A stretch of DNA of 57,183 nt from Candidatus Schekmanbacteria bacterium RIFCSPLOWO2_02_FULL_38_14 (GTDB lineage: Bacteria; Schekmanbacteria; GWA2-38-11). The position numbers and the translations under genes are program-made. The stretch lies in assembly GCA_001790855.1 (NCBI GenBank), contig MGDH01000025.1:1-57183 (forward strand), given 5' to 3'. Numbering within the stretch: position 1 is the first letter of the stretch; every line of letters begins with the position of its first letter. This document shows, piece after piece, positions 38,587 through 53,222 of this stretch. The notes below the pieces were generated by a model, which saw nothing but the letters and a program-made list of their open reading frames with translations, was not told the origin of the DNA and searched no databases.

Positions 38587-40500
38587 ATGCGTAAAGTAAA
38601 ATCCGTTCTGGTTCTGTATGTTGGTATCATATTAGTTTTACTTTTTATTAGTAATAGTTTTGCGGCTACATTTAATGTAAAAAACATTTCTGAATTCAGA
38701 CAGGCTCTTGAAAATGCTGCAGTAAATGGAGAAGATGACACAATTATTTTAGATGCCGGAACTTATAAAACCACAGATGACGGCATAGGAACTTTCAAGT
38801 TTTCAGACACTGAAGCGTACAATCTTACTATCAAGGCAAAAGATGGATTAACCTATAATGACGTTATTCTTGATGGAGGGAATATACATCAGGTGCTTAA
38901 CTATATAAATACAAAAGCTGCTACTTTTACAATCGACAGCATTACTGTTAAAAATGGAAAGGCTTCTGGCTACCGTAGTGGTGGTATTTACAGCGGTGGC
39001 TATAGTAGTAGCATAACAGTAACAAACTCCACCATCTCAGGGAATAGTGGCGGCAGCGGTATTTACAGCGGTGGCGATGGTAGTGTAACAGTAACAAACT
39101 CAATCATCTCAGAAAATAGTGGCGGCAGCGGTATTTACGGCGGCAACAGCGTAACAATAACAAACTCCACCATCTCAGGAAATACTAATAATGGCGACAA
39201 AAGCTACAATGGTAAAGGTGGTGGTATTTACAGCGGTGGCGGCGTAACAGTAACAAACTCAATCATCTCAGGAAATACTGTTCAAGACTACTATATCGAC
39301 AATGGTAACGGTGGTGGTATTTACAGCGGTGGCAGCGTAACAGTAACAAACTCAATCATTTCAGAAAATAGAGCTTATGATGACGGTGGTGGTATTTACG
39401 GCGGTGGCGATGGTGGTGTAACAGTAACAAACTCAATCATCTCAGGAAATGATGCAAGTTTCGGCGGTGGCTATAACGTCAATGATGGTGGTGGTATTTA
39501 CAGCGGTGGCGGCGTAACAGTAACAAACTCAATCATCTCAGAAAATAGAGCTTATAGCAGCTATCCCTTCGATTACGGTTATGGTGGTGGTATTTACAGC
39601 GGTGGCGATGGTGGTGTAACAGTAACAAACTCAATCATCTCAGGAAATACTGATAATGGCTACTATAGCTACAATGGTCACGGTGGTGGTATTTATGGTA
39701 AAGGTAATTTTATAAATAATATTTTTGCGGATAATTCATCAGATATTTATTTTGGAGGAAATAGTAATGTCTATAACAACTATATTGATTACACGAATCT
39801 TTTAAATGAATCGTCTTATGTTATTATCAAAAAGGACAACATTCAGCCCAGTGCAGGGAACCTGAACTTTACAGACTCTGATTTCAGGTTAGGAGCTGGT
39901 TCGGTTGCTATTGATAAAGGACTTGACCCTAACTCTGATATATTTAAAGGACTATTTACTACGGATAGCAACTTACTTGCAAAAGTTCTGAATTCATTGC
40001 AAAGCGATAAAGATGGGAACCAAAGAATTGCAGGCATTGCTATTGATTTAGGAGCTTATGAATACGGCTCAATACCAACCACCACTACGACAACTACAAC
40101 AACTTCAACTACGACGACATCAACAGATGCAGGTACAACAACGTCAACATCAACAACTACGACAACATCCTCTACCACCACCACCACAATCCCCTGTTCT
40201 AACAAAAGTCCTGAGATTTCAGGAATCAGCCCGACAAAAGGAACTTATGCTGATGAGATAACAATAAGCGGGATTGATTTCTGTGGTGAGGAAGGGATTG
40301 TGTATTTTGCAAGACTTGGAACAAAGAAAATGGCAGATGTTGAAAGCTGGAATGATGATGAGATTGTTGTTTCTGTGCCGTGGGAATTAAAGCAGGGAAT
40401 TTACAAGGTTAAAGTTGCCACAGCTTTGGGGAATGAGAGCAATCAGATACCTTTCAAATTCTTAAAACCTATTCCCCATATTACAGGTTTATCTATTTAG
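38587..40500 (+). CDS. Secreted beta-helix repeat protein, cut short by TAG
   Basis: 637 residues. A signal peptide (LVLYVGIILVLLFISNSFA) is followed by a right-handed beta-helix: eight or so repeats of GGGIYSGG(DG)GVTVTNSIISGN, the Pmp/polymorphic-membrane-protein type used by adhesins. A cap region (FTDSDFRLGAGSVAIDKG...IDLGAYEYG) closes the helix. A Thr/Ser linker of about 45 residues leads to an IPT/TIG domain (ISGISPTKGTYADEITISGIDF). TAG at 40498-40500 ends it after ITGLSI, but the frame continues for another TIG domain. AGGAG eight bases before the ATG supports the start. Likely a surface-exposed, possibly adhesive protein. Confidence 0.85.
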   Translation: MRKVKSVLVLYVGIILVLLFISNSFAATFNVKNISEFRQALENAAVNGEDDTIILDAGTYKTTDDGIGTFKFSDTEAYNLTIKAKDGLTYNDVILDGGNIHQVLNYINTKAATFTIDSITVKNGKASGYRSGGIYSGGYSSSITVTNSTISGNSGGSGIYSGGDGSVTVTNSIISENSGGSGIYGGNSVTITNSTISGNTNNGDKSYNGKGGGIYSGGGVTVTNSIISGNTVQDYYIDNGNGGGIYSGGSVTVTNSIISENRAYDDGGGIYGGGDGGVTVTNSIISGNDASFGGGYNVNDGGGIYSGGGVTVTNSIISENRAYSSYPFDYGYGGGIYSGGDGGVTVTNSIISGNTDNGYYSYNGHGGGIYGKGNFINNIFADNSSDIYFGGNSNVYNNYIDYTNLLNESSYVIIKKDNIQPSAGNLNFTDSDFRLGAGSVAIDKGLDPNSDIFKGLFTTDSNLLAKVLNSLQSDKDGNQRIAGIAIDLGAYEYGSIPTTTTTTTTTSTTTTSTDAGTTTSTSTTTTTSSTTTTTIPCSNKSPEISGISPTKGTYADEITISGIDFCGEEGIVYFARLGTKKMADVESWNDDEIVVSVPWELKQGIYKVKVATALGNESNQIPFKFLKPIPHITGLSI

Positions 40501-42835: not shown

Positions 42836-43234
42836 TTAAAAAACTTTAAATTTCTCTTCAGAAATTTCTCTGTTTACTATGCTAAAAATTCTGGCAACAG
42901 GATTCTTTTTATCAAGAAAAGAAACTATCAGATAAAGTTGCTCATTGTAAAATGCCTTTTCTATATCTTCCATTGATGGATAGGCTTCATTATTGGGGTG
43001 TGAATGATAAATAGCAAGCATTTCAATCTGTTCCCTTTCAATCTCTTTGAGCATATTCAATTGTTCAAAAGGGTCAGCCAAATAAGCGGTAGGGCTCTTT
43101 TTTGTATTTGTCAACCTGATTAATTTTTCAACCTTATTCCTCTTCCCTGCCAAAACCCCGCATCCCTCAAAGGGAAATTCTGACCTTAGATGTTCAATCA
43201 TTTCTTCAAAAATCTTTTTTGGAATTTCAAGCAT
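42836..43234 (-). CDS. JAMM/MPN+ metalloprotease (Mec+/HcyD-like)
   Basis: 132 residues. The JAMM zinc site is complete: E23 in FEGCGVLAG and H77-S-H79-P...S87..D90 in YHSHPNNEAYPSMED. Small bacterial JAMM proteins remove residues from the C-terminus of ubiquitin-like sulfur carriers: Mec+ releases cysteine from CysO in mycobacteria and HcyD trims HcyS in Wolinella. It is last in the operon thrC-like, carrier, NIL, JAMM. The neighbouring carrier has eight residues after its Gly-Gly, so it is the expected substrate. Confidence 0.9.
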   Translation of the reverse strand: MLEIPKKIFEEMIEHLRSEFPFEGCGVLAGKRNKVEKLIRLTNTKKSPTAYLADPFEQLNMLKEIEREQIEMLAIYHSHPNNEAYPSMEDIEKAFYNEQLYLIVSFLDKKNPVARIFSIVNREISEEKFKVF

Positions 43235-43276
43235 TTTTCAGGAAGGGCTCAGGGTTCAGGGTTTTGACTTTTGATT

Positions 43277-43516
43277 TTATTCAACAACGTCCCCTTCAAT
43301 CGGGTCAACTCTGATGTCAAGTTTTTCCAGCCATTCAATTGCTCTTTCTATCTCATCCATCTCACCTGTCAGCTCAAAGTCAATCCATCCGCTCCTCTCC
43401 TCAATCAAAGCCCTGCGGATATTTGTTATTACTTTAAATTCGTGACAGAGGCGGTATATGACAGGCTCTTTTATTATATCCCCTGAAAACCTTAATTTGA
43501 CTTTTAAGTTAGACAT
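43277..43516 (-). CDS. NIL-domain protein
   Basis: 79 residues. LKVKLRFSGDIIKEPVIYRLCHEFKVITNIRRALIEERSGWIDFELTGEMDEIERAIEWLEKLDIRVDPI is a stand-alone NIL (ferredoxin-like, ACT-like) domain, otherwise known from the C-terminus of methionine ABC transporter ATPases, where it binds methionine. It overlaps the carrier gene by 13 bases. A ligand-sensing or substrate-channelling role in sulfur amino-acid synthesis is likely; it is inferred from context. Confidence 0.88.
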   Translation of the reverse strand: MSNLKVKLRFSGDIIKEPVIYRLCHEFKVITNIRRALIEERSGWIDFELTGEMDEIERAIEWLEKLDIRVDPIEGDVVE

Positions 43517-43803
43517 CTTATTCCCCTGCTGCCTCCTGCAATTGCCGGAACAATGGATACCTCATCACCGTCTTTAAGCTGGGTATCCTTCCCTTCCATA
43601 AAACGGATATCTTCATCATTAAGATATATGTTAATAAATCTTCTGATGTTTCCATCCTCCTCACACAGCCTCTGCTTTATTCCCTTGAAGTTTTTTTCAA
43701 GCTCCTCAATCAACTCACCTATGTTTTTCCCATCACATTCAACCAGAGATTTATCTCCTGTAAGTTTTCTTAAAGGAGTTGGAATCCTAACCTTAACACT
43801 CAT
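43504..43803 (-). CDS. MoaD/ThiS-like sulfur-carrier protein with masked C-terminus
   Basis: 99 residues, beta-grasp fold: VKVRIPTPLRKLTGDKSLVE, then IGELIEELEKNF, and LKDGDEVSIVPAIAGG. Sulfur carriers end in Gly-Gly, which is adenylated and turned into a thiocarboxylate. Here eight residues (SRGIRCLT) follow Gly90-Gly91, so it must be trimmed first, presumably by the JAMM protease two genes downstream. The E1-like enzyme that would activate it is at 47767. It starts about 50 bases after the thrC-like gene, behind a small repeat. Confidence 0.9.
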   Translation of the reverse strand: MSVKVRIPTPLRKLTGDKSLVECDGKNIGELIEELEKNFKGIKQRLCEEDGNIRRFINIYLNDEDIRFMEGKDTQLKDGDEVSIVPAIAGGSRGIRCLT

Positions 43804-43851
43804 AAATCCTCCTAAAAATTAACTTATAACTTATAACCTATGACCTATGAC

Positions 43852-45087
43852 CTAACTTTCCAGCTTATTCAACTTCTCCTGAAAATCACTCAGATGCGGC
43901 TCTATTTTTAAAGGCGATGATAAAGAGTTTACAACCGCTTCCTGTGTCTTAAGACCATTACCTGTTATGTACGCAACTGTCATATCTCTCTTTTTTATCT
44001 TCCCCGCCTCTGCAAGTTTTTTAAGGGTTGCAACAGTTACACCTCCTGCTGTTTCTGCAAATATTCCCTCTGTTGCAGCAAGAAGCTTAATTCCCTCAAC
44101 CGCCTCATCATCAGTTACTGTCTCAAAAACTCCCTTGCTCTCCTTTACCGCCTTAAGCGAATAGTACCCATCCGCAGGGTTGCCGATTGCAATGGATTTT
44201 GCAATTGTATTTGGTTTGACAGGTTTTATGAATTCAGTCCCTGCCTTAAATGCTGCAGCAACAGGAGAGCATCCATATGCCTGCGCTCCATTGACTACTG
44301 TATGAAGTTCTTTTATTATCCCGAGCATCTGAAATTCCTTGAATCCCTTCCATATCTTTGTAAGAAGAGAACCAGAAGCAACAGGAACAACAACCTGGTC
44401 AGGGGCTCTCCAGCCAAGCTGCTCTGCTGTTTCATAGGCAAGTGTTTTTGAGCCTTCAGCATAATATGGTCTTATATTTATATTTACAAATGCCCACCTG
44501 TACTCTCCTGCTATCTCACTGCATAACCGGTTTACATCATCATAGTTCCCGTTAACCGCAACAAGAGTTGGATTGTAGACCAAGCTTCCAAGTACTTTTC
44601 CTGCTTCCAAATCTCCCGGGATAAAAACATAGCATTTAAGCCCTGCCTCAGCAGCATGCGCAGCGACAGAATTCGCAAGATTTCCGGTTGAAGCGCAGGC
44701 AACTGTATCAAAACCAAACTCCTTAGCTTTTGTCAGAGCTATTGCAACCACTCTGTCCTTGAATGAAAGGGTCGGATGGTTTACTGTATCATTCTTTAAA
44801 TAGAGTTCATCAAGCCCGAGTTTATTCCCAAGGTTTTTTGCCTTTACCATCGGGGTAAATCCGGCGTTGGAACCAACCAGAGCATCTCCCTTGACTGGCA
44901 ATAGGTCTATGTATCTCCACAGGCTCTTTGGACCCTTTTCAATTTCTTTTCTCGTTAATTTCTTCTTTATATTCTCATAATTATAATTTACCTCTAATGG
45001 TCCGAAACAGAATTCGCACACGTGGATTGGGTCTGCAGGATATTCACTGCCGCATTCCCTGCATATCAATCCCTTTACCTTATCCAT
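43852..45087 (-). CDS. Threonine-synthase-like PLP enzyme, riboswitch-controlled
   Basis: 411 residues. N-terminal zinc-ribbon-like CRECGSEYPADPIHVCEFC, then the fold-type II PLP core with the Schiff-base Lys in HPTLSFKDRVVA and CASTGNLANSVAAHA, and the ribbon end VAYITGNGLKTQE. By family it is threonine synthase (PLP-dependent conversion of phosphohomoserine). Two facts argue for another role: a SAM-I riboswitch controls it, and it leads an operon with a sulfur carrier, a NIL protein and a JAMM protease. It may add a protein thiocarboxylate to phosphohomoserine or a relative, giving homocysteine or cysteine. I start at ATG 45087 with AAGGAGT upstream; the longer frame begins inside the terminator. 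Confidence 0.88.
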   Translation of the reverse strand: MDKVKGLICRECGSEYPADPIHVCEFCFGPLEVNYNYENIKKKLTRKEIEKGPKSLWRYIDLLPVKGDALVGSNAGFTPMVKAKNLGNKLGLDELYLKNDTVNHPTLSFKDRVVAIALTKAKEFGFDTVACASTGNLANSVAAHAAEAGLKCYVFIPGDLEAGKVLGSLVYNPTLVAVNGNYDDVNRLCSEIAGEYRWAFVNINIRPYYAEGSKTLAYETAEQLGWRAPDQVVVPVASGSLLTKIWKGFKEFQMLGIIKELHTVVNGAQAYGCSPVAAAFKAGTEFIKPVKPNTIAKSIAIGNPADGYYSLKAVKESKGVFETVTDDEAVEGIKLLAATEGIFAETAGGVTVATLKKLAEAGKIKKRDMTVAYITGNGLKTQEAVVNSLSSPLKIEPHLSDFQEKLNKLES

Positions 45088-45106
45088 TTTTACTCCTTCA
45101 TAAACC

Positions 45107-45136
45107 AAAAAAAAACCTCTTCAGGGTATGAAGAGG
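45107..45136 (-). terminator. Riboswitch terminator
   Basis: Minus strand CCTCTTCA-TACCC-TGAAGAGG followed by nine T. The left arm also pairs with AAGAGGA upstream (45159-45153) as an antiterminator, so the two folds exclude each other. Confidence 0.9.
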
Positions 45137-45154
45137 ATTTTTAAATAAAAACTC

Positions 45155-45270
45155 CTCTTATCTTCTCCCGAATTCTTCTCGGGATCGGAATTAGCACCAG
45201 CATCCTGTTTTTTTCAGGACCGGTTGCTGTGGCTTCAGCGGGCCGCTCCCTCAGCCACTCTTGATAAGAT
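45155..45270 (-). promoter_or_regulatory. SAM-I (S-box) riboswitch aptamer
   Basis: On the minus strand: P1 CTTATC...GATAAG, then the hallmark blocks AAGAGTGGCTGAGGGA, GGCCCGCTGAAGCCACAGCAACCGG, a variable hairpin TCCTG-AAAAAA-CAGGA, GGTGCTAATTCC and a final hairpin CCCGA-GAAGAAT-TCGGG. The 3' strand of P1 overlaps the antiterminator arm AAGAGGA, so SAM binding frees the terminator and turns off the downstream thrC-like operon. All core elements of SAM-I are present and in order. Confidence 0.95.
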
Positions 45271-45294
45271 CTATGCTAAAATCTTAGTCTCTAT

Positions 45295-45322
45295 ATTCTA
45301 TTAAAAAACAAATAATTGTCAA
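45295..45322 (-). promoter_or_regulatory. Promoter of the SAM-riboswitch operon
   Basis: Minus-strand TTGACA (45322-45317), 16-base spacer, TAGAAT (45300-45295). It lies between the ABC permease stop and the aptamer, so the sulfur-carrier operon has its own start. Confidence 0.75.
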
Positions 45323-45344
45323 TACAAAAATATTGTAAATTCTT

Positions 45345-47033
45345 CTATATTTCAATTTTCTCCAAACGCTTCATCCCAGCCCTGAGTGGAAAATACGCAG
45401 TTATTATGCTCAGAATAACAATACCAAGGTACGAAAAATAAACCCACATACCTCCTACATTTCTGTAAAAAACCTTGTAATTAAAGTATGAATATACAGG
45501 ACCTGCCTCAAGAACAATTGTCAAACCAACATATACCAGGCTTATTATCATAAACAGGATTCCGCCTGTACTTGCTGAAACCTGTGCAGGGTCTTCAAAC
45601 CTGAACTTTGGATATATTGCGCTAAAACCAACACCCAATCCAACAATTGCCAGAGTTATGAAAAACATCGTAACTACTGAAAGAAGCATCATGTAACTGT
45701 CAACCTCAAGGATAAGGTTGGATATCACAATAAGACTCTCTGATATGAGCAATAAAGGGACAAAAAATATAAAAAATTTCCCCCATATGTAGCTTTTGTA
45801 ATCAACAGGACCTGAAATAAGTATCCACATTGATTGTCCCTCAAGGCTTATTGCAGGATATACAAAGCGAACAGCAAGGGCAGAAAGCACAAACCCTGCA
45901 AGCCCGAGATTCATGAAGGAAACAAGGTTTTTCAAAAAAAATGTATCAAGAGGCAGGTTGTAAATATTAAAAAAATAAATTACTACCAGTCCAAGAAGCA
46001 TGAAAATCTGAGACCATTTGGTTGGGTCCCTTAAAAACAATTTAATATCTTTTTCAAGAAAGTTCCCCCGTATTGAATTATTTTTTCTGAGAACTTTTTC
46101 TTTTATTCCATTCTGTTTTAACCCATCAGGCAACAGCCTGAAGCTGTTTGATTCCCTGGATCTTATCACTCCATGAAAATAGATTTTTGATGCTATGAAA
46201 ACCACAACAGCAAATGTAATGATACTGGTGGCGTAAAAAAGCCATAGCATTTTATATGTTCCTATATACCTTCCATCAAGAGAGTACCTGATTGCCTCAG
46301 TTGCCCATGTGCTTGGAAGAAACCAGTAGTCCGGAACCTCAAGGCTTTTTAAAAACGAAACTATCATGTCATCTGTAACTTTCCTCCCCAAAAGTTTTTC
46401 AGGCTCAGAAAATCTTATTAAAAATATAAGCCCTATGGCAAATATCCCCCCAAGAAATGTCATAATCTGGTAAGTCTTCCTGACAGGGAAAAGACGGACG
46501 AGAAACATTGTAATCAGAATTCCTGCGTTTGCTGAAAGCATTGCAAACGGGATAAAAAGAAAAAGAAGGATAAAATAAAATTTTAATTCCATTCCATATA
46601 TTCTTCCAAGCGCAAGAAATATCGGGAAGCCGAACATTGCTATCATCCAAGAACTGTTAAAAAGAGTCTGAATGAACTTAAAAATGAAAGCTGAATAGCT
46701 TGGAACCGGCAAGTTCATAAGAAGTTCCAGATCTGATGAAATATATAATGTAGACAGTGAAGCGATAATATTGGAGAAGAAAAGCATTGAGAGAAAAGTA
46801 ATGAAAATTACTCTCAGCAGTTGTAAGATAAGAATACTTCCTATTGTATCTTCAAGAGAAAAAATATATTTTATAACTCTGTAAAAAAAGAAATAATCAA
46901 GTACAAGAAACAGAAATGCAACAATGAGCAGAAAAGAAAATTTAAAAACCCCTTCTTTTGAAAGGGTTTTAAGGTTATTTTTTATTGATAATATCTTAAT
47001 ATATAAGAGAGGGATTAAATTTAAACGAGTCAT
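45345..47033 (-). CDS. ABC-2-type exporter permease
   Basis: 562 residues with about twelve to fourteen hydrophobic segments and a central hydrophilic stretch (SRESNSFRLLPDGLKQNGIKEKVLRKNNSIRG). The pattern (SSDLELLMNLPVPSYSAF near the N-terminus; FLEKDIKLFLRDPTKWSQ starting the second half; SLEGQSMWILISGPVDYKSYIWGKF) matches the large two-half permeases of ABC-2 exporters. The ATPase gene ends five bases upstream, so they form one transporter. Substrate unknown. It separates the MoeB-like gene from the riboswitch operon. Confidence 0.82.
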   Translation of the reverse strand: MTRLNLIPLLYIKILSIKNNLKTLSKEGVFKFSFLLIVAFLFLVLDYFFFYRVIKYIFSLEDTIGSILILQLLRVIFITFLSMLFFSNIIASLSTLYISSDLELLMNLPVPSYSAFIFKFIQTLFNSSWMIAMFGFPIFLALGRIYGMELKFYFILLFLFIPFAMLSANAGILITMFLVRLFPVRKTYQIMTFLGGIFAIGLIFLIRFSEPEKLLGRKVTDDMIVSFLKSLEVPDYWFLPSTWATEAIRYSLDGRYIGTYKMLWLFYATSIITFAVVVFIASKIYFHGVIRSRESNSFRLLPDGLKQNGIKEKVLRKNNSIRGNFLEKDIKLFLRDPTKWSQIFMLLGLVVIYFFNIYNLPLDTFFLKNLVSFMNLGLAGFVLSALAVRFVYPAISLEGQSMWILISGPVDYKSYIWGKFFIFFVPLLLISESLIVISNLILEVDSYMMLLSVVTMFFITLAIVGLGVGFSAIYPKFRFEDPAQVSASTGGILFMIISLVYVGLTIVLEAGPVYSYFNYKVFYRNVGGMWVYFSYLGIVILSIITAYFPLRAGMKRLEKIEI

Positions 47034-47038
47034 ACAAT

Positions 47039-47770
47039 TTAACTTGTGACAGTGTCTGTAAGCTCCAGAAAAATCTCTTCAAGCCTGCCATCTTTCTGGT
47101 TTGATTTTTCCCACAGCTCTTTAATTGTTCCGCCAGCTACCAATTCTCCTTTAGCTATGATTCCTATTCTGTCGCACAGCTTCTCTGCTTCCTCCATTAT
47201 ATGAGTTGACATGAATATGGTTGTTCCATTTCTGCTAAGCCCTCTGAACAATTCCCTGACTATTTTTGCCCCCTGAGGGTCAAGACCAACCATCGGTTCA
47301 TCAACAACAAGGACCCTTGGTTCGTGGATTAATGCCATGCTTATTGCCAGTTTCTGTTTCATTCCATGGGAATAACTCTCAATAAGCTCATTTCCGTACT
47401 GAGACAACCCAAACATCTCAAAAAACCCCTCAGATTTTTTTTCAATATTAACATTATTCATCTTATATATAACTCCGACAAGCCGCAGCATTTCCCTTCC
47501 TGTTAATTTTTCATACAGATATGGATTATCAGGAATATATCCAACAATGCTTTTTGTCTTTAATGGTTCTCTGACGACATCAAAACCACCTATTGTAACT
47601 CTGCCATCTGATGGCTTTGCAAGCCCTGTTAATATCTTAATTGTTGTTGTTTTGCCTGCACCGTTAGGACCTAAAAACCCTAAAAACTCCCCTTTTGAAA
47701 TATTAAGGGTGATTTTCTTTAAGGCTTGAAAATTTCCATAATACTTTGTGAGACAGTCAAGGCTAATCAA
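47039..47770 (-). CDS. ABC transporter ATP-binding protein
   Basis: 243 residues. Walker A GPNGAGKTT, Q loop GYIPDNPYLYEKLTG, signature YSHGMKQKL, Walker B VLVVDEPMVGLDPQG and the switch His in MSTHIMEEAE. This is the CcmA-type family that drives ABC-2 exporters. The start is TTG and overlaps the MoeB-like gene's stop by four bases; the permease follows after five bases. Confidence 0.93.
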   Translation of the reverse strand: MISLDCLTKYYGNFQALKKITLNISKGEFLGFLGPNGAGKTTTIKILTGLAKPSDGRVTIGGFDVVREPLKTKSIVGYIPDNPYLYEKLTGREMLRLVGVIYKMNNVNIEKKSEGFFEMFGLSQYGNELIESYSHGMKQKLAISMALIHEPRVLVVDEPMVGLDPQGAKIVRELFRGLSRNGTTIFMSTHIMEEAEKLCDRIGIIAKGELVAGGTIKELWEKSNQKDGRLEEIFLELTDTVTS

Positions 47771-48570
47771 TCCTCTCGCCTTTCACAAACCAATTCATAG
47801 TCCTCAAGTGCGGTGATTGTTGGGTTTTCACCGCATACAGGGCAGGATTTATTGGGATGGATTTTAATCTTTCTCAATGTCATTCCAATAGTTTCAACTA
47901 TCATTATTCCGTCAATTAACTTTCCTATTCCAAGCAACATCTTTATAACCTCAGTAGCCTGAATCATACCCACTAATCCTCCAACAGCGCCGATTACGCC
48001 GGCTTCACGGCATGAAGGTATAGAACCGGGTTCAGGCGGTTTCTCAAATACACAGCGGTAGCAGGCAGATTTTCCGGGGACAACGGTGAGAATCTGTCCC
48101 ATAAAACGCAATATGCCTGCAATGCTCAAAGGTTTTTTTTTCATAACACAGGCATCATTTATCAAAAATTTAGTAGGGAAATTGTCGCTCCCATCAACTA
48201 CGATATCATACTCATCAATAATATCAATAATATTTTTTGAATCTATTCTGATATTTAAAGGAACTACTTCAATATCAGGATTAATCCCTTTTAAAGTATC
48301 CAACGCCGAATCAACTTTCTTTCTGTTAATATTTTCAGTTTTATGTAAAATCTGCCTCTGAAGATTGCTGAGGTCAACAACATCACTGTCTGCAATTCCA
48401 ATCTTTCCAACGCCTGCTGCTGCAAGATACATTGAAGATGGCGAACCGAGCCCTCCGGCACCTATTATAAGCACCTTCGAATTAAGGAGCTTTTTCTGTC
48501 CTTTGCCTCCGATTTCAGGAAGGATAATTTGTCTGCTGTAACGCTCTATCTGTTCTTCACTAAAATCCAT
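47767..48570 (-). CDS. MoeB/ThiF-type adenylyltransferase (E1-like)
   Basis: 267 residues. The nucleotide site is VLIIGAGGLGSPSSMYLAAAGVGKIGIADSDVVDLSNLQRQILH, with the D in VVDGSDNFPTKFLINDAC; CYRC and CPVCG form the zinc site; IPSCREAGVIGAVGGLVGMIQA holds the MoeB/ThiF C-terminal helix. It adenylates the C-terminal glycine of a MoaD/ThiS-like carrier. No rhodanese domain is attached, so sulfur must come from another donor. The carrier gene is about 4 kb downstream in the riboswitch operon; this is the only E1-like gene in the window. Confidence 0.93.
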   Translation of the reverse strand: MDFSEEQIERYSRQIILPEIGGKGQKKLLNSKVLIIGAGGLGSPSSMYLAAAGVGKIGIADSDVVDLSNLQRQILHKTENINRKKVDSALDTLKGINPDIEVVPLNIRIDSKNIIDIIDEYDIVVDGSDNFPTKFLINDACVMKKKPLSIAGILRFMGQILTVVPGKSACYRCVFEKPPEPGSIPSCREAGVIGAVGGLVGMIQATEVIKMLLGIGKLIDGIMIVETIGMTLRKIKIHPNKSCPVCGENPTITALEDYELVCERRED

Positions 48571-49172: not shown

Positions 49173-49904
49173 CTATTTTTTTCGGATGGAAACAAGCGCT
49201 TTTACTGCTTGAAGCTTTTTCTTAAAAGTTTCTTTTCTGTAAATAATTAGAGCTAAAATCCCCAACGCCATAAGATACAGAGTTGATGGTTCAGGAACAG
49301 CCATTGCCTCAGCAACATATTCAGCATCGTGAGATGGAGGAACAAAATCTGAATGGGTTTTAATAGTGGTAGAAGTCTTTTTCCCTGTCGCTACATCATA
49401 AAATCCGTAGGCATCAAAATGGACCCAATCAAAACCTGCTACAACTATATCAAATGTTAAAGTTTGTGGAAGAGAAACTAAACCTCCATTGTTAATCTCT
49501 TCTAAAGCAAACCATGTAGGAAAAATATCATGAGATGGATATTGTGATGTTCCTACATCGGCTTCATCGAATAGGGGAGTGCCCCAGCTATAAGCTGATG
49601 AAGAAATTGTAGTAGCGCCACCATCAACAGAAACAGTACCATTATTCATTGATGATTCGCTTCCAGGTACAGCAATAACCAGATTAAGGCCATAAAGCGC
49701 ATTTTCATTTGGTCCGGCAGTTAATATTAATTTCAAAGTAAATTCTGAACTACTGGTTACCCACGTCTCTGTTACATTATCATAATACCCGCCTTCTATC
49801 TCCAAAGATACAGTTGGGGTAGCAGAAGCCACACTTCCGGCAAGCAAATATACTATTATTGCCAATATTAAATAATTAAATACATTTTTATACACTTTAT
49901 TCAT
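49173..49904 (-). CDS. PEP-CTERM exported protein
   Basis: 243 residues from ATG 49904 (246 from 49913). A signal peptide (VFNYLILAIIVYLLAGSVASA), a beta-rich middle (TPTVSLEIEGGYYDN ... GFDWVHFDAYGFYDVATGKK) and a C-terminal sorting signal AVPEPSTLYLMALGILALIIYRK. PEP-CTERM proteins are cut and processed by exosortase and go to the surface or biofilm matrix; no exosortase is in the window. The signal usually ends the protein, but here 19 residues (ETFKKKLQ...SIRKK) follow. I prefer the second ATG because the predicted sigma-54 transcript starts at about 49918, only five bases before the first. Confidence 0.88.
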   Translation of the reverse strand: MNKVYKNVFNYLILAIIVYLLAGSVASATPTVSLEIEGGYYDNVTETWVTSSSEFTLKLILTAGPNENALYGLNLVIAVPGSESSMNNGTVSVDGGATTISSSAYSWGTPLFDEADVGTSQYPSHDIFPTWFALEEINNGGLVSLPQTLTFDIVVAGFDWVHFDAYGFYDVATGKKTSTTIKTHSDFVPPSHDAEYVAEAMAVPEPSTLYLMALGILALIIYRKETFKKKLQAVKALVSIRKK

Positions 49905-49928
49905 ATACACCATCCCACCAGTATATTA

Positions 49929-50900: not shown

Positions 50901-53222
50901 CTAATCTAATGGTATCTCTTCAACACTCAACTTATCAATAAACCATCCCCTGAATCCGTTATACATACTATCAACAGTATCAAATCTAAAACGCAGCATA
51001 ACATACTGGCCAACGTATTCTGAAAGATTTGCTTCATAAAAAGTCCATACAGGGGCTTTAAAAAATCCTGCAGAAGTATAGGGTTTATCATTTCTGTTTT
51101 CAACCACAGGGTCAGAATAGGGATTCAATTTAATTAATTCAGCAAATGTTTCCCCTCCATCTGTTAAAATTTCAACTGTCATCAAATCAAATCCTGTATC
51201 ATTGGGATTAGCCCCCTCTATTTCCCACCACGACCAGAACCTCAAAACAGGATTTATTGCACTTGCAAGGTCTATTTCAGGCGATGTCAAAGTACCTGAA
51301 TGTGGTATAGTTGATGTTCCTCCTGATTTTATTGAATCAGTGTCATCCTGTACACCTAAATAACTCCCAACAATATCCCTTCCAAACCAGTATAAATATT
51401 GTCCGCTAAAAGCATTAGGAATCGCTCCATTAGAAGTATCATTAGGAGACAATGTTACGAACTCCGGAATAAGGGTATTTACTATTCCTGAGCCATTTTG
51501 CACCCTATGCCAAAAAACTCCTAAATCAGGATAAGCAACCCATCCTGTGTCTTCTTCAAAATCATCTTCAAAGTACGTGGTGAAAGTTGAAGCTGAACTT
51601 AAAATAAAATCTACATTAGCTGTATTTTTATTTTCCGCAACAACAGGTAAAATTTCAGAAATTCCATATCCTTTTTTTACTGCCTTCGCAGTATAGCTTG
51701 TTATCTGAGCGCCATTTGTATCTTTCAATGGAATTGAGTCGATTGTGTAAGATCCGTCACTGTTTGTAATTGTTGATGCAAAAACTCCGTTTGTCTGTAA
51801 CCCTCCACTTATCTGAACTGTTGCTCCCTCAATTGGATTTCCGCCACTATCAGTAACTCTGCCTGAGATACTGCCAACAGAGATTGTCAGTGTTGTTGGA
51901 GAAATGGCTGCATTAAGCAGAACTGAGTCATTAGAAACAACTACATTATCTGAGGCAAAGGGGTCATATTGCAGTTTCTGGATAATGACATTATAATTTC
52001 CTGCAGGGACTGCAATGCTATATCCACCATCTGTATCTGTCAATGTATCTCCGACTCCTTCTACACCTACTGTGGCGTCAGATATTGACTGCTGTGTCTG
52101 AACGTCAGTTACTTTTCCATAAATCAAAAAGGTTGCAACTGTTGTAGTCGTTGTGCTTGTCGTTGTAGTTGTAGTAGTCGAAGTTGTTGTGGTAGTAGTC
52201 GTGGTCGTTGTGGTAGTCGGAATGGGAATTATAATTATTGAGGCAGTTGCAGATTTAGTCGGGTCTGCATCGCTTGTTGCCTTAATGGTAACAGTTTTTG
52301 TTTCTAAGGTGTTTGGTGCCTTATATTTCCCACTGCTGCTGTTAATTATTCCTTTAGAATCATCATCTCCAACAATTGACCATGTTACAGATGTGATAAA
52401 AGCCCCTGTAACTGTTGCTGTAAAATCCTTTGACTCCCCTGCGTTCATTTCTGCTGAATCAGGAGTAACAGAAACCTCAACATCCCCTCCGACAACCGTC
52501 ATATAGATTACCGCTGGTTCAGAATTATCCCCGGGAGCTGTTGCTTTTACATCTTCTTGTACTCCACGATACACCACATTACCCGATGAATCCAACCCCT
52601 CAAGGGTTACAGTATAACTTCCTTCAAGCGTGACATTTCCAAACTCCAAGACCCTGTCATTAACATCAACCGTTACAGGACCATAACTCTCATCTGTTAA
52701 ATTGTTTACTGCCGTCCCTCTAACGTTTCTCACTTCTTCAGGAATCCCGCTTTCGCTCTGAAAAACCCCAATCTTATTTCTATTGACCCATTTTGCTTTA
52801 AGAGCAAGTTTCCCTTTCTTAAGCTTTTTATAGACAAATACTGAAGCAAAATCAGCGCTCCCATTTTCTCCTTTAACAGAAACTTTTACAGGATTAACAG
52901 AGGGAACTCTTTTTGGAGCATAATAAACACCATTTTTATCAATATTCCCATATGTATCATTCCCGCCTTGAATCCCATTCACGCTCCATGTCAACCCATT
53001 TATAGCCCTGACAAACTTTCCATCTTTTTTCTCTTTCACATAAAACTTTTTCTTTTTCCCAACCTTAATTGAAGTCTTATCAGGGTTTATCCGGAATGAA
53101 ATGTTTTTTGAACTGTCTCTAAGAGATTTGTCCGCATCAGCATATATCTTTGTGCTAAAAATACTCAGCAGTATTCCTGCAACAGCTATAAAAGACAGAA
53201 AAGAAGAGAAAGTTTTTTTCAT
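50901..53222 (-). CDS. Large secreted multidomain protein with poly-Thr linker
   Basis: 773 residues with a signal peptide (SFLSFIAVAGILLSIFSTKIYA). Two Ig-like (BIG) domains at about 40-130 and 250-335 (SVTPDSAEMNAGESKDFTATV...SIVGDDDSKGIINSSSGKYKAP). A Thr-rich linker of about 35 residues follows, then two carboxypeptidase-regulatory-like domains (IYGKVTDVQTQQSISDATVGV; ISGRVTDSGGNPIEGATVQI). The C-terminal 230 residues are a jelly-roll/MAM-like module (YFEDDFEEDTGW ... SGTLTSPEIDLASAINPVLRFWSWWE ... RFRFDTVD...GWFIDKLSVEE), as in immune-inhibitor-A-type proteins. It is the third gene of the TPR-barrel/FecR operon, whose products may export or anchor it. Confidence 0.85.
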   Translation of the reverse strand: MKKTFSSFLSFIAVAGILLSIFSTKIYADADKSLRDSSKNISFRINPDKTSIKVGKKKKFYVKEKKDGKFVRAINGLTWSVNGIQGGNDTYGNIDKNGVYYAPKRVPSVNPVKVSVKGENGSADFASVFVYKKLKKGKLALKAKWVNRNKIGVFQSESGIPEEVRNVRGTAVNNLTDESYGPVTVDVNDRVLEFGNVTLEGSYTVTLEGLDSSGNVVYRGVQEDVKATAPGDNSEPAVIYMTVVGGDVEVSVTPDSAEMNAGESKDFTATVTGAFITSVTWSIVGDDDSKGIINSSSGKYKAPNTLETKTVTIKATSDADPTKSATASIIIIPIPTTTTTTTTTTTTSTTTTTTTSTTTTTVATFLIYGKVTDVQTQQSISDATVGVEGVGDTLTDTDGGYSIAVPAGNYNVIIQKLQYDPFASDNVVVSNDSVLLNAAISPTTLTISVGSISGRVTDSGGNPIEGATVQISGGLQTNGVFASTITNSDGSYTIDSIPLKDTNGAQITSYTAKAVKKGYGISEILPVVAENKNTANVDFILSSASTFTTYFEDDFEEDTGWVAYPDLGVFWHRVQNGSGIVNTLIPEFVTLSPNDTSNGAIPNAFSGQYLYWFGRDIVGSYLGVQDDTDSIKSGGTSTIPHSGTLTSPEIDLASAINPVLRFWSWWEIEGANPNDTGFDLMTVEILTDGGETFAELIKLNPYSDPVVENRNDKPYTSAGFFKAPVWTFYEANLSEYVGQYVMLRFRFDTVDSMYNGFRGWFIDKLSVEEIPLD

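Follow-up and report, generated by a model that had tools for sequence, protein, structure and literature searches.

The minus-strand operon described here, which lies in a 57,183-nucleotide stretch of Candidatus Schekmanbacteria DNA (the window), very probably encodes a SAM-controlled homocysteine synthase system of the MetM/MetO type, together with a NIL-domain protein and a JAMM metalloprotease as partners. In Streptomyces, MetM/MetO has been described as a homocysteine synthase acting on O-phosphohomoserine (OPHS), a SAM riboswitch upstream of metM has been reported for S. albulus, and MetM homologues have been noted in cyanobacteria (Hasebe et al., 2024, Appl Environ Microbiol 90:e01247-24, as cited in PMC12172450). 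In this sense, the sequence-only reading of this DNA, which had presented the transfer of carrier-bound sulfide by a threonine-synthase homologue as a new, third variant of such chemistry, is out of date on that point, as the proposal matches what is reported for Streptomyces; the chemistry being already known, the reading is otherwise supported at the level of sequence, and all of its sequence-level predictions were borne out.

The claimed gene order, from a thrC-like gene through a MoaD/ThiS-like carrier and a NIL protein to a JAMM protease, was found on the minus strand. The metM-like gene (43852..45087) encodes a threonine-synthase homologue of 411 aa with a PALP/thrC family match and a PLP lysine at Lys110; its start is better read at the ATG at 45087, which stands behind AAGGAG, and an in-frame TTG occurs at 45108. 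It is followed by the metO-like sulfur carrier (43504..43803), with a ThiS/MoaD family match, whose Gly-Gly is not terminal (the end ...IVPAIAGG continues for eight residues, SRGIRCLT), by a standalone protein matching the NIL domain family (43277..43516), and by a JAMM metalloprotease of the Prok-JAB family (42836..43234) with its HxH...S..D motif intact. Short direct repeats were seen by eye in the metM-metO gap (window 43820-43851; ACCTATGACCTATGACCTA) and in the gap between the NIL and JAMM genes (window 43237-43276; GGGTTCAGGG-type). A MoeB/ThiF-type E1 adenylyltransferase with a ThiF/MoeB family match (47767..48570) does lie upstream on the same strand, as had been stated, but two minus-strand genes that stand between it and the riboswitch had gone unmentioned; they encode the ATPase (47039-47770) and the permease (45345-47033) of an ABC exporter and are probably unrelated. 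Because of these two genes the E1 is placed outside the riboswitch-controlled transcript, and it is the probable activator of the carrier, on a separate transcript here. Elsewhere in the window, a secreted protein with a PEP-CTERM-like sorting signal at its end (VPEPSTLYLMALGILALIIYRK) is encoded at 49173-49913, and 38587-40500 and 50901-53222 each code for a large secreted protein that contains extended threonine-rich stretches.

Ahead of the metM-like gene, the claimed SAM-I aptamer with its own promoter, antiterminator and terminator is present in full, again on the minus strand. The SAM-I (S-box) aptamer (RF00162; 45155..45270) scores 84.2 bits against an Rfam gathering score of 44.4 (E 1.7e-18), and the genome (2.68 Mb, 99.4% complete) has no other SAM-I element. 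It is preceded by a sigma-70-like promoter (45295..45322; TTGACA-16-TAGAAT) that matches the consensus at 11 of 12 positions and ranks top of 22 candidates across the region. The expression platform consists of an antiterminator hairpin (45130..45162; -9.2 kcal/mol), which is formed from the 3' side of P1 together with the 5' side of the terminator stem and excludes both, and of an intrinsic terminator (45107..45139; stem 45136-45116, then U9; -10.6 kcal/mol), and the folded leader has a z of -4.0. Judged by this architecture, the leader is of the standard SAM-off design, in which SAM would stabilise P1, block the antiterminator and halt transcription.

The association of metM with a carrier gene recurs widely: a carrier lies within 4 kb of metM and on the same strand at 85 of 92 loci, and adjacent to it at all 23 cyanobacterial ones (23/23), while the 69 non-cyanobacterial loci include 54 with NIL, 33 with an E1 nearby on the same strand, 27 with JAMM and ten with a true ThrC. 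SAM-I elements stand ahead of orthologs in Nitrospinota, Methylomirabilota, Chloroflexota, Omnitrophota, Actinomycetota and one further lineage, and directly upstream at all ten actinobacterial loci scanned (Rfam); none was found at the Nitrospirota and cyanobacterial metM loci. Both of the recurrences that the sequence-only reading had proposed to look for, that of the gene set and that of the riboswitch, are therefore seen, and the Streptomyces/cyanobacterial methionine route is widened to about ten phyla. Orthologs also occur in Aquificota, several of whose loci are without a carrier next to metM; the homocysteine route of Aquifex/Aquificota is listed as still to be discovered (PMC5764234), and the MetM family is a candidate for the missing step. 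The Nitrospira-type loci (L033-L038, L041, L045, L046) hold metM, metO, NIL and JAMM together with two different E1 genes and a fold-II PLP gene (weak match), which is perhaps cysteine-synthase-like; possibly, a single carrier serves both cysteine and homocysteine there.

These distributions bear on whether MetM might use free sulfide, with carrier, E1 and JAMM serving tRNA thiolation, cofactors or cysteine. The Aquificota loci without a carrier beside metM would fit such an arrangement, as would the four other ThiS-family proteins of the genome and the cysteine-synthase-like gene and paired E1 genes of the Nitrospira-type clusters, but it is unlikely in view of the near-universal adjacency of metM and metO across phyla, cyanobacteria included, and of MetO being reported as a sulfur carrier in Streptomyces (PMC12172450).

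The carrier-dependent MetM reading also has to be set against an ordinary threonine synthase, since the window enzyme scores 306 bits on TIGR00260 thrC (cutoff 167). A whole-genome profile search found a second TIGR00260 copy above the cutoff elsewhere in the genome, at G000:C23 (L125:9892-11241), and this copy is a plant-type threonine synthase (563 bits to Arabidopsis 1e5x, almost full length); the main circumstance that would have told against the proposal, a sole thrC in the genome, is thus not what was found. A deoxyhypusine-synthase-like gene, identified by eye, lies directly upstream of it (L125:8648-9757). Plant threonine synthase is activated by SAM, and with a plant-type ThrC here the OPHS branch point may therefore be under SAM control on both sides.

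A quick tree of 67 proteins, with long branches for part of the ThrC sequences, groups the window enzyme with 47 orthologs in a single clade (SH-aLRT 100); all 19 sampled ThrC-like proteins fall outside it, even those encoded in the same clusters as metM. The window protein shares this clade with cyanobacterial loci and with actinobacterial loci from 8-10-Mb genomes of about 71% GC; we infer that these genomes are Streptomyces-like, the clade containing no named Streptomyces MetM sequence. Several residues are fixed in MetM (48/48 each) and different in ThrC: R206 (mostly Asn in ThrC), Y209 (mostly Arg), S213 (Gln/Lys), L137 (Thr/Ala), T346 (Pro) and T381 (Asp), so that the window enzyme neither groups with true ThrC nor keeps its substrate-pocket residues. 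On alignment with Thermus threonine synthase, Y209 corresponds to Arg160 and R206 to Asn157; Arg160 lies presumably within the substrate-phosphate site, and a literature search on phosphate-binding residues of threonine synthase returned no paper. The MetM fold is clear, as judged from the sequence. An ordinary threonine synthase that by chance stands beside sulfur-carrier genes would account for the TIGR00260 score, and the Microcystis homologue does have threonine synthase activity at high OPHS (PMC12172450); it is nevertheless very unlikely, given the plant-type ThrC in the genome, the separate clade with its changed pocket positions, the SAM-I control of the gene and the tandem MetM-MetO-NIL-ThrC clusters at 10 loci. 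That the enzyme is a cysteine synthase of the CysM/CysO/Mec+ type acting on O-phosphoserine, with the carrier, E1 and JAMM toolkit in common, is hardly credible, as it falls outside the CysK/CysM family, two CysK-type genes are found in the genome, and SAM-I control indicates methionine. A homocysteine synthase of the MetM type, descended from threonine synthase, is therefore preferred, which suggests that a good many genes now labelled as threonine synthase code for homocysteine synthases.

Regarding substrate supply for MetM, genes for homoserine dehydrogenase, the proposed homoserine kinase TIGR02535 (543 bits, cutoff 446) and aspartokinase lie side by side in the genome (ask-hom-TIGR02535 operon), which should be able to make OPHS provided that the proposed TIGR02535 assignment is right. 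Neither MetX nor DUF39 (PF01837) had a match in the genome, and an E. coli MetA query had none in any of 13 MetM genomes, including that of the window. The genome has a single PF01053-family PLP enzyme, which is divergent, is encoded on a different contig and falls below every equivalog cutoff, being nearest to methionine gamma-lyase; it could conceivably make homocysteine, which counts against the MetM reading. The Microcystis homologue counts against it as well: its threonine-synthase and threonine-deaminase activities are reported as weak, and free sulfide did not clearly yield homocysteine (PMC12172450). Among 60 genomes (13 with MetM and 47 without), which are not fully independent of one another, both the PF01053 family and DUF39 are missing from 8/13 MetM-bearing genomes and from 7/47 of the others (p 0.0017); taken singly, MetX and DUF39 showed no significant anticorrelation with MetM in these 60 genomes.

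As for the partners, Asn32 of the NIL protein falls, in alignment, at the position of Asn295 in E. coli MetN. There the residue is required for L-methionine binding, and its replacement by Ala makes the inhibition constant for L-methionine rise 28-fold (PMC12357092). Of 56 relatives, 49 have Asn at the position and seven have Ser or Asp. Because of the match to Asn295, a role of the NIL protein as a methionine-binding feedback subunit is suggested, and standalone NIL proteins gain a testable role as methionine sensors. At seven loci (L078, L079, L080, L121, L122, L123, L124) carrier and NIL are fused directly after Gly-Gly in single reading frames; a JAMM gene is nearby at six of these seven, compared with 21 of the 54 non-cyanobacterial loci that lack the fusion (p 0.037), and the fused carriers, being mostly near JAMM, therefore fit this enzyme as a maturation protease. 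Genomes with MetM also carry JAMM more often than those without (11/13 vs 9/47, p 2.6e-5), and of 55 genomes with MetM, 51 have a JAMM gene; most of the cyanobacteria are among these 51, with the JAMM gene unlinked and with carriers that nearly all end at GG. The carrier's C-terminal tail was rejected as an explanation of JAMM linkage (odds ratio 1.0 among unfused non-cyanobacterial loci). Since there is no such relation, and since cyanobacteria with GG-ending carriers have JAMM too, tail trimming alone appears insufficient, and JAMM probably has a role beyond it, for instance in releasing homocysteine from the carrier. In another locus (L063:3007-4134), a MoaD-like carrier is joined to a MoeB-like E1 after GG in one reading frame, and a JAMM domain lies nearby within a frame of 557 codons.

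The NIL partner, the carrier-NIL fusions mostly beside JAMM, the JAMM co-occurrence and the Aquificota orthologs seem to be new. We would tentatively go further, with less than even confidence, and propose that NIL serves the MetM/MetO synthase as its dedicated subunit for methionine binding and feedback, that several lineages make a carrier-NIL proprotein which JAMM cuts after Gly-Gly, that the sensing of the end product, the maturation of the carrier and the SAM-dependent control of transcription make up one layered system, and that the same family supplies the homocysteine route of Aquificota.

The proposed pathway would start with the formation of OPHS by aspartokinase, homoserine dehydrogenase and the TIGR02535 kinase, the genes for all of which are present. 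Following the chemistry of their families, JAMM would expose the Gly-Gly end of MetO where a tail or a fused NIL follows, and E1 would adenylate MetO, after which the thiocarboxylate sulfur would be added. MetM, as a PLP enzyme, would take the phosphate off OPHS and put carrier sulfur onto C-gamma, and homocysteine would arise directly, or else by way of a carrier adduct from which JAMM frees it; the MetH-like enzyme, whose gene is found in the genome, would then convert it to methionine. On the strength of the Asn295 match, NIL would bind methionine and feed back on the enzyme or the carrier. In Streptomyces, MetO reportedly works as a thiocarboxylated sulfur carrier.

Several known systems share parts of this arrangement. 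In HcyS-HcyD-HcyF-MetY of Wolinella, a carrier, a JAMM protease and an E1-type activator feed homocysteine synthesis; MetY (PF01053), which uses O-acetylhomoserine, is the PLP enzyme of that system, whereas the window cluster has a ThrC homologue of PF00291 and no member of the MetY family. Mycobacterial CysO-CysM-Mec+ combines a carrier thiocarboxylate, a JAMM protease and a fold-II PLP enzyme, but CysM takes O-phosphoserine and yields cysteine, and the window enzyme belongs to a different PLP family. In the DUF39/NIL-ferredoxin/COG2122 route, a NIL domain takes part in homocysteine formation (PMC5764234); the window's genome is without a PF01837 protein, and its NIL protein is without the ferredoxin part. 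The ThiS/MoaD-E1-JAB-cysteine synthase operons have the same carrier, E1 and JAB toolkit as the window (Iyer et al., 2006, PMC1779556), and neither threonine synthase nor NIL is mentioned for them, whereas the window has both a ThrC homologue and a NIL protein. With MetM/MetO of Streptomyces, as reported, the window has in common a ThrC-related PLP enzyme, an adjacent ThiS/MoaD-type carrier with Gly-Gly, an upstream SAM riboswitch and, as the presumed substrate here, OPHS. At 14 actinobacterial loci, the surroundings of metM showed no NIL and no JAMM gene; compared with the Streptomyces system, the window operon adds the NIL and JAMM genes and a tail after the Gly-Gly of the carrier.
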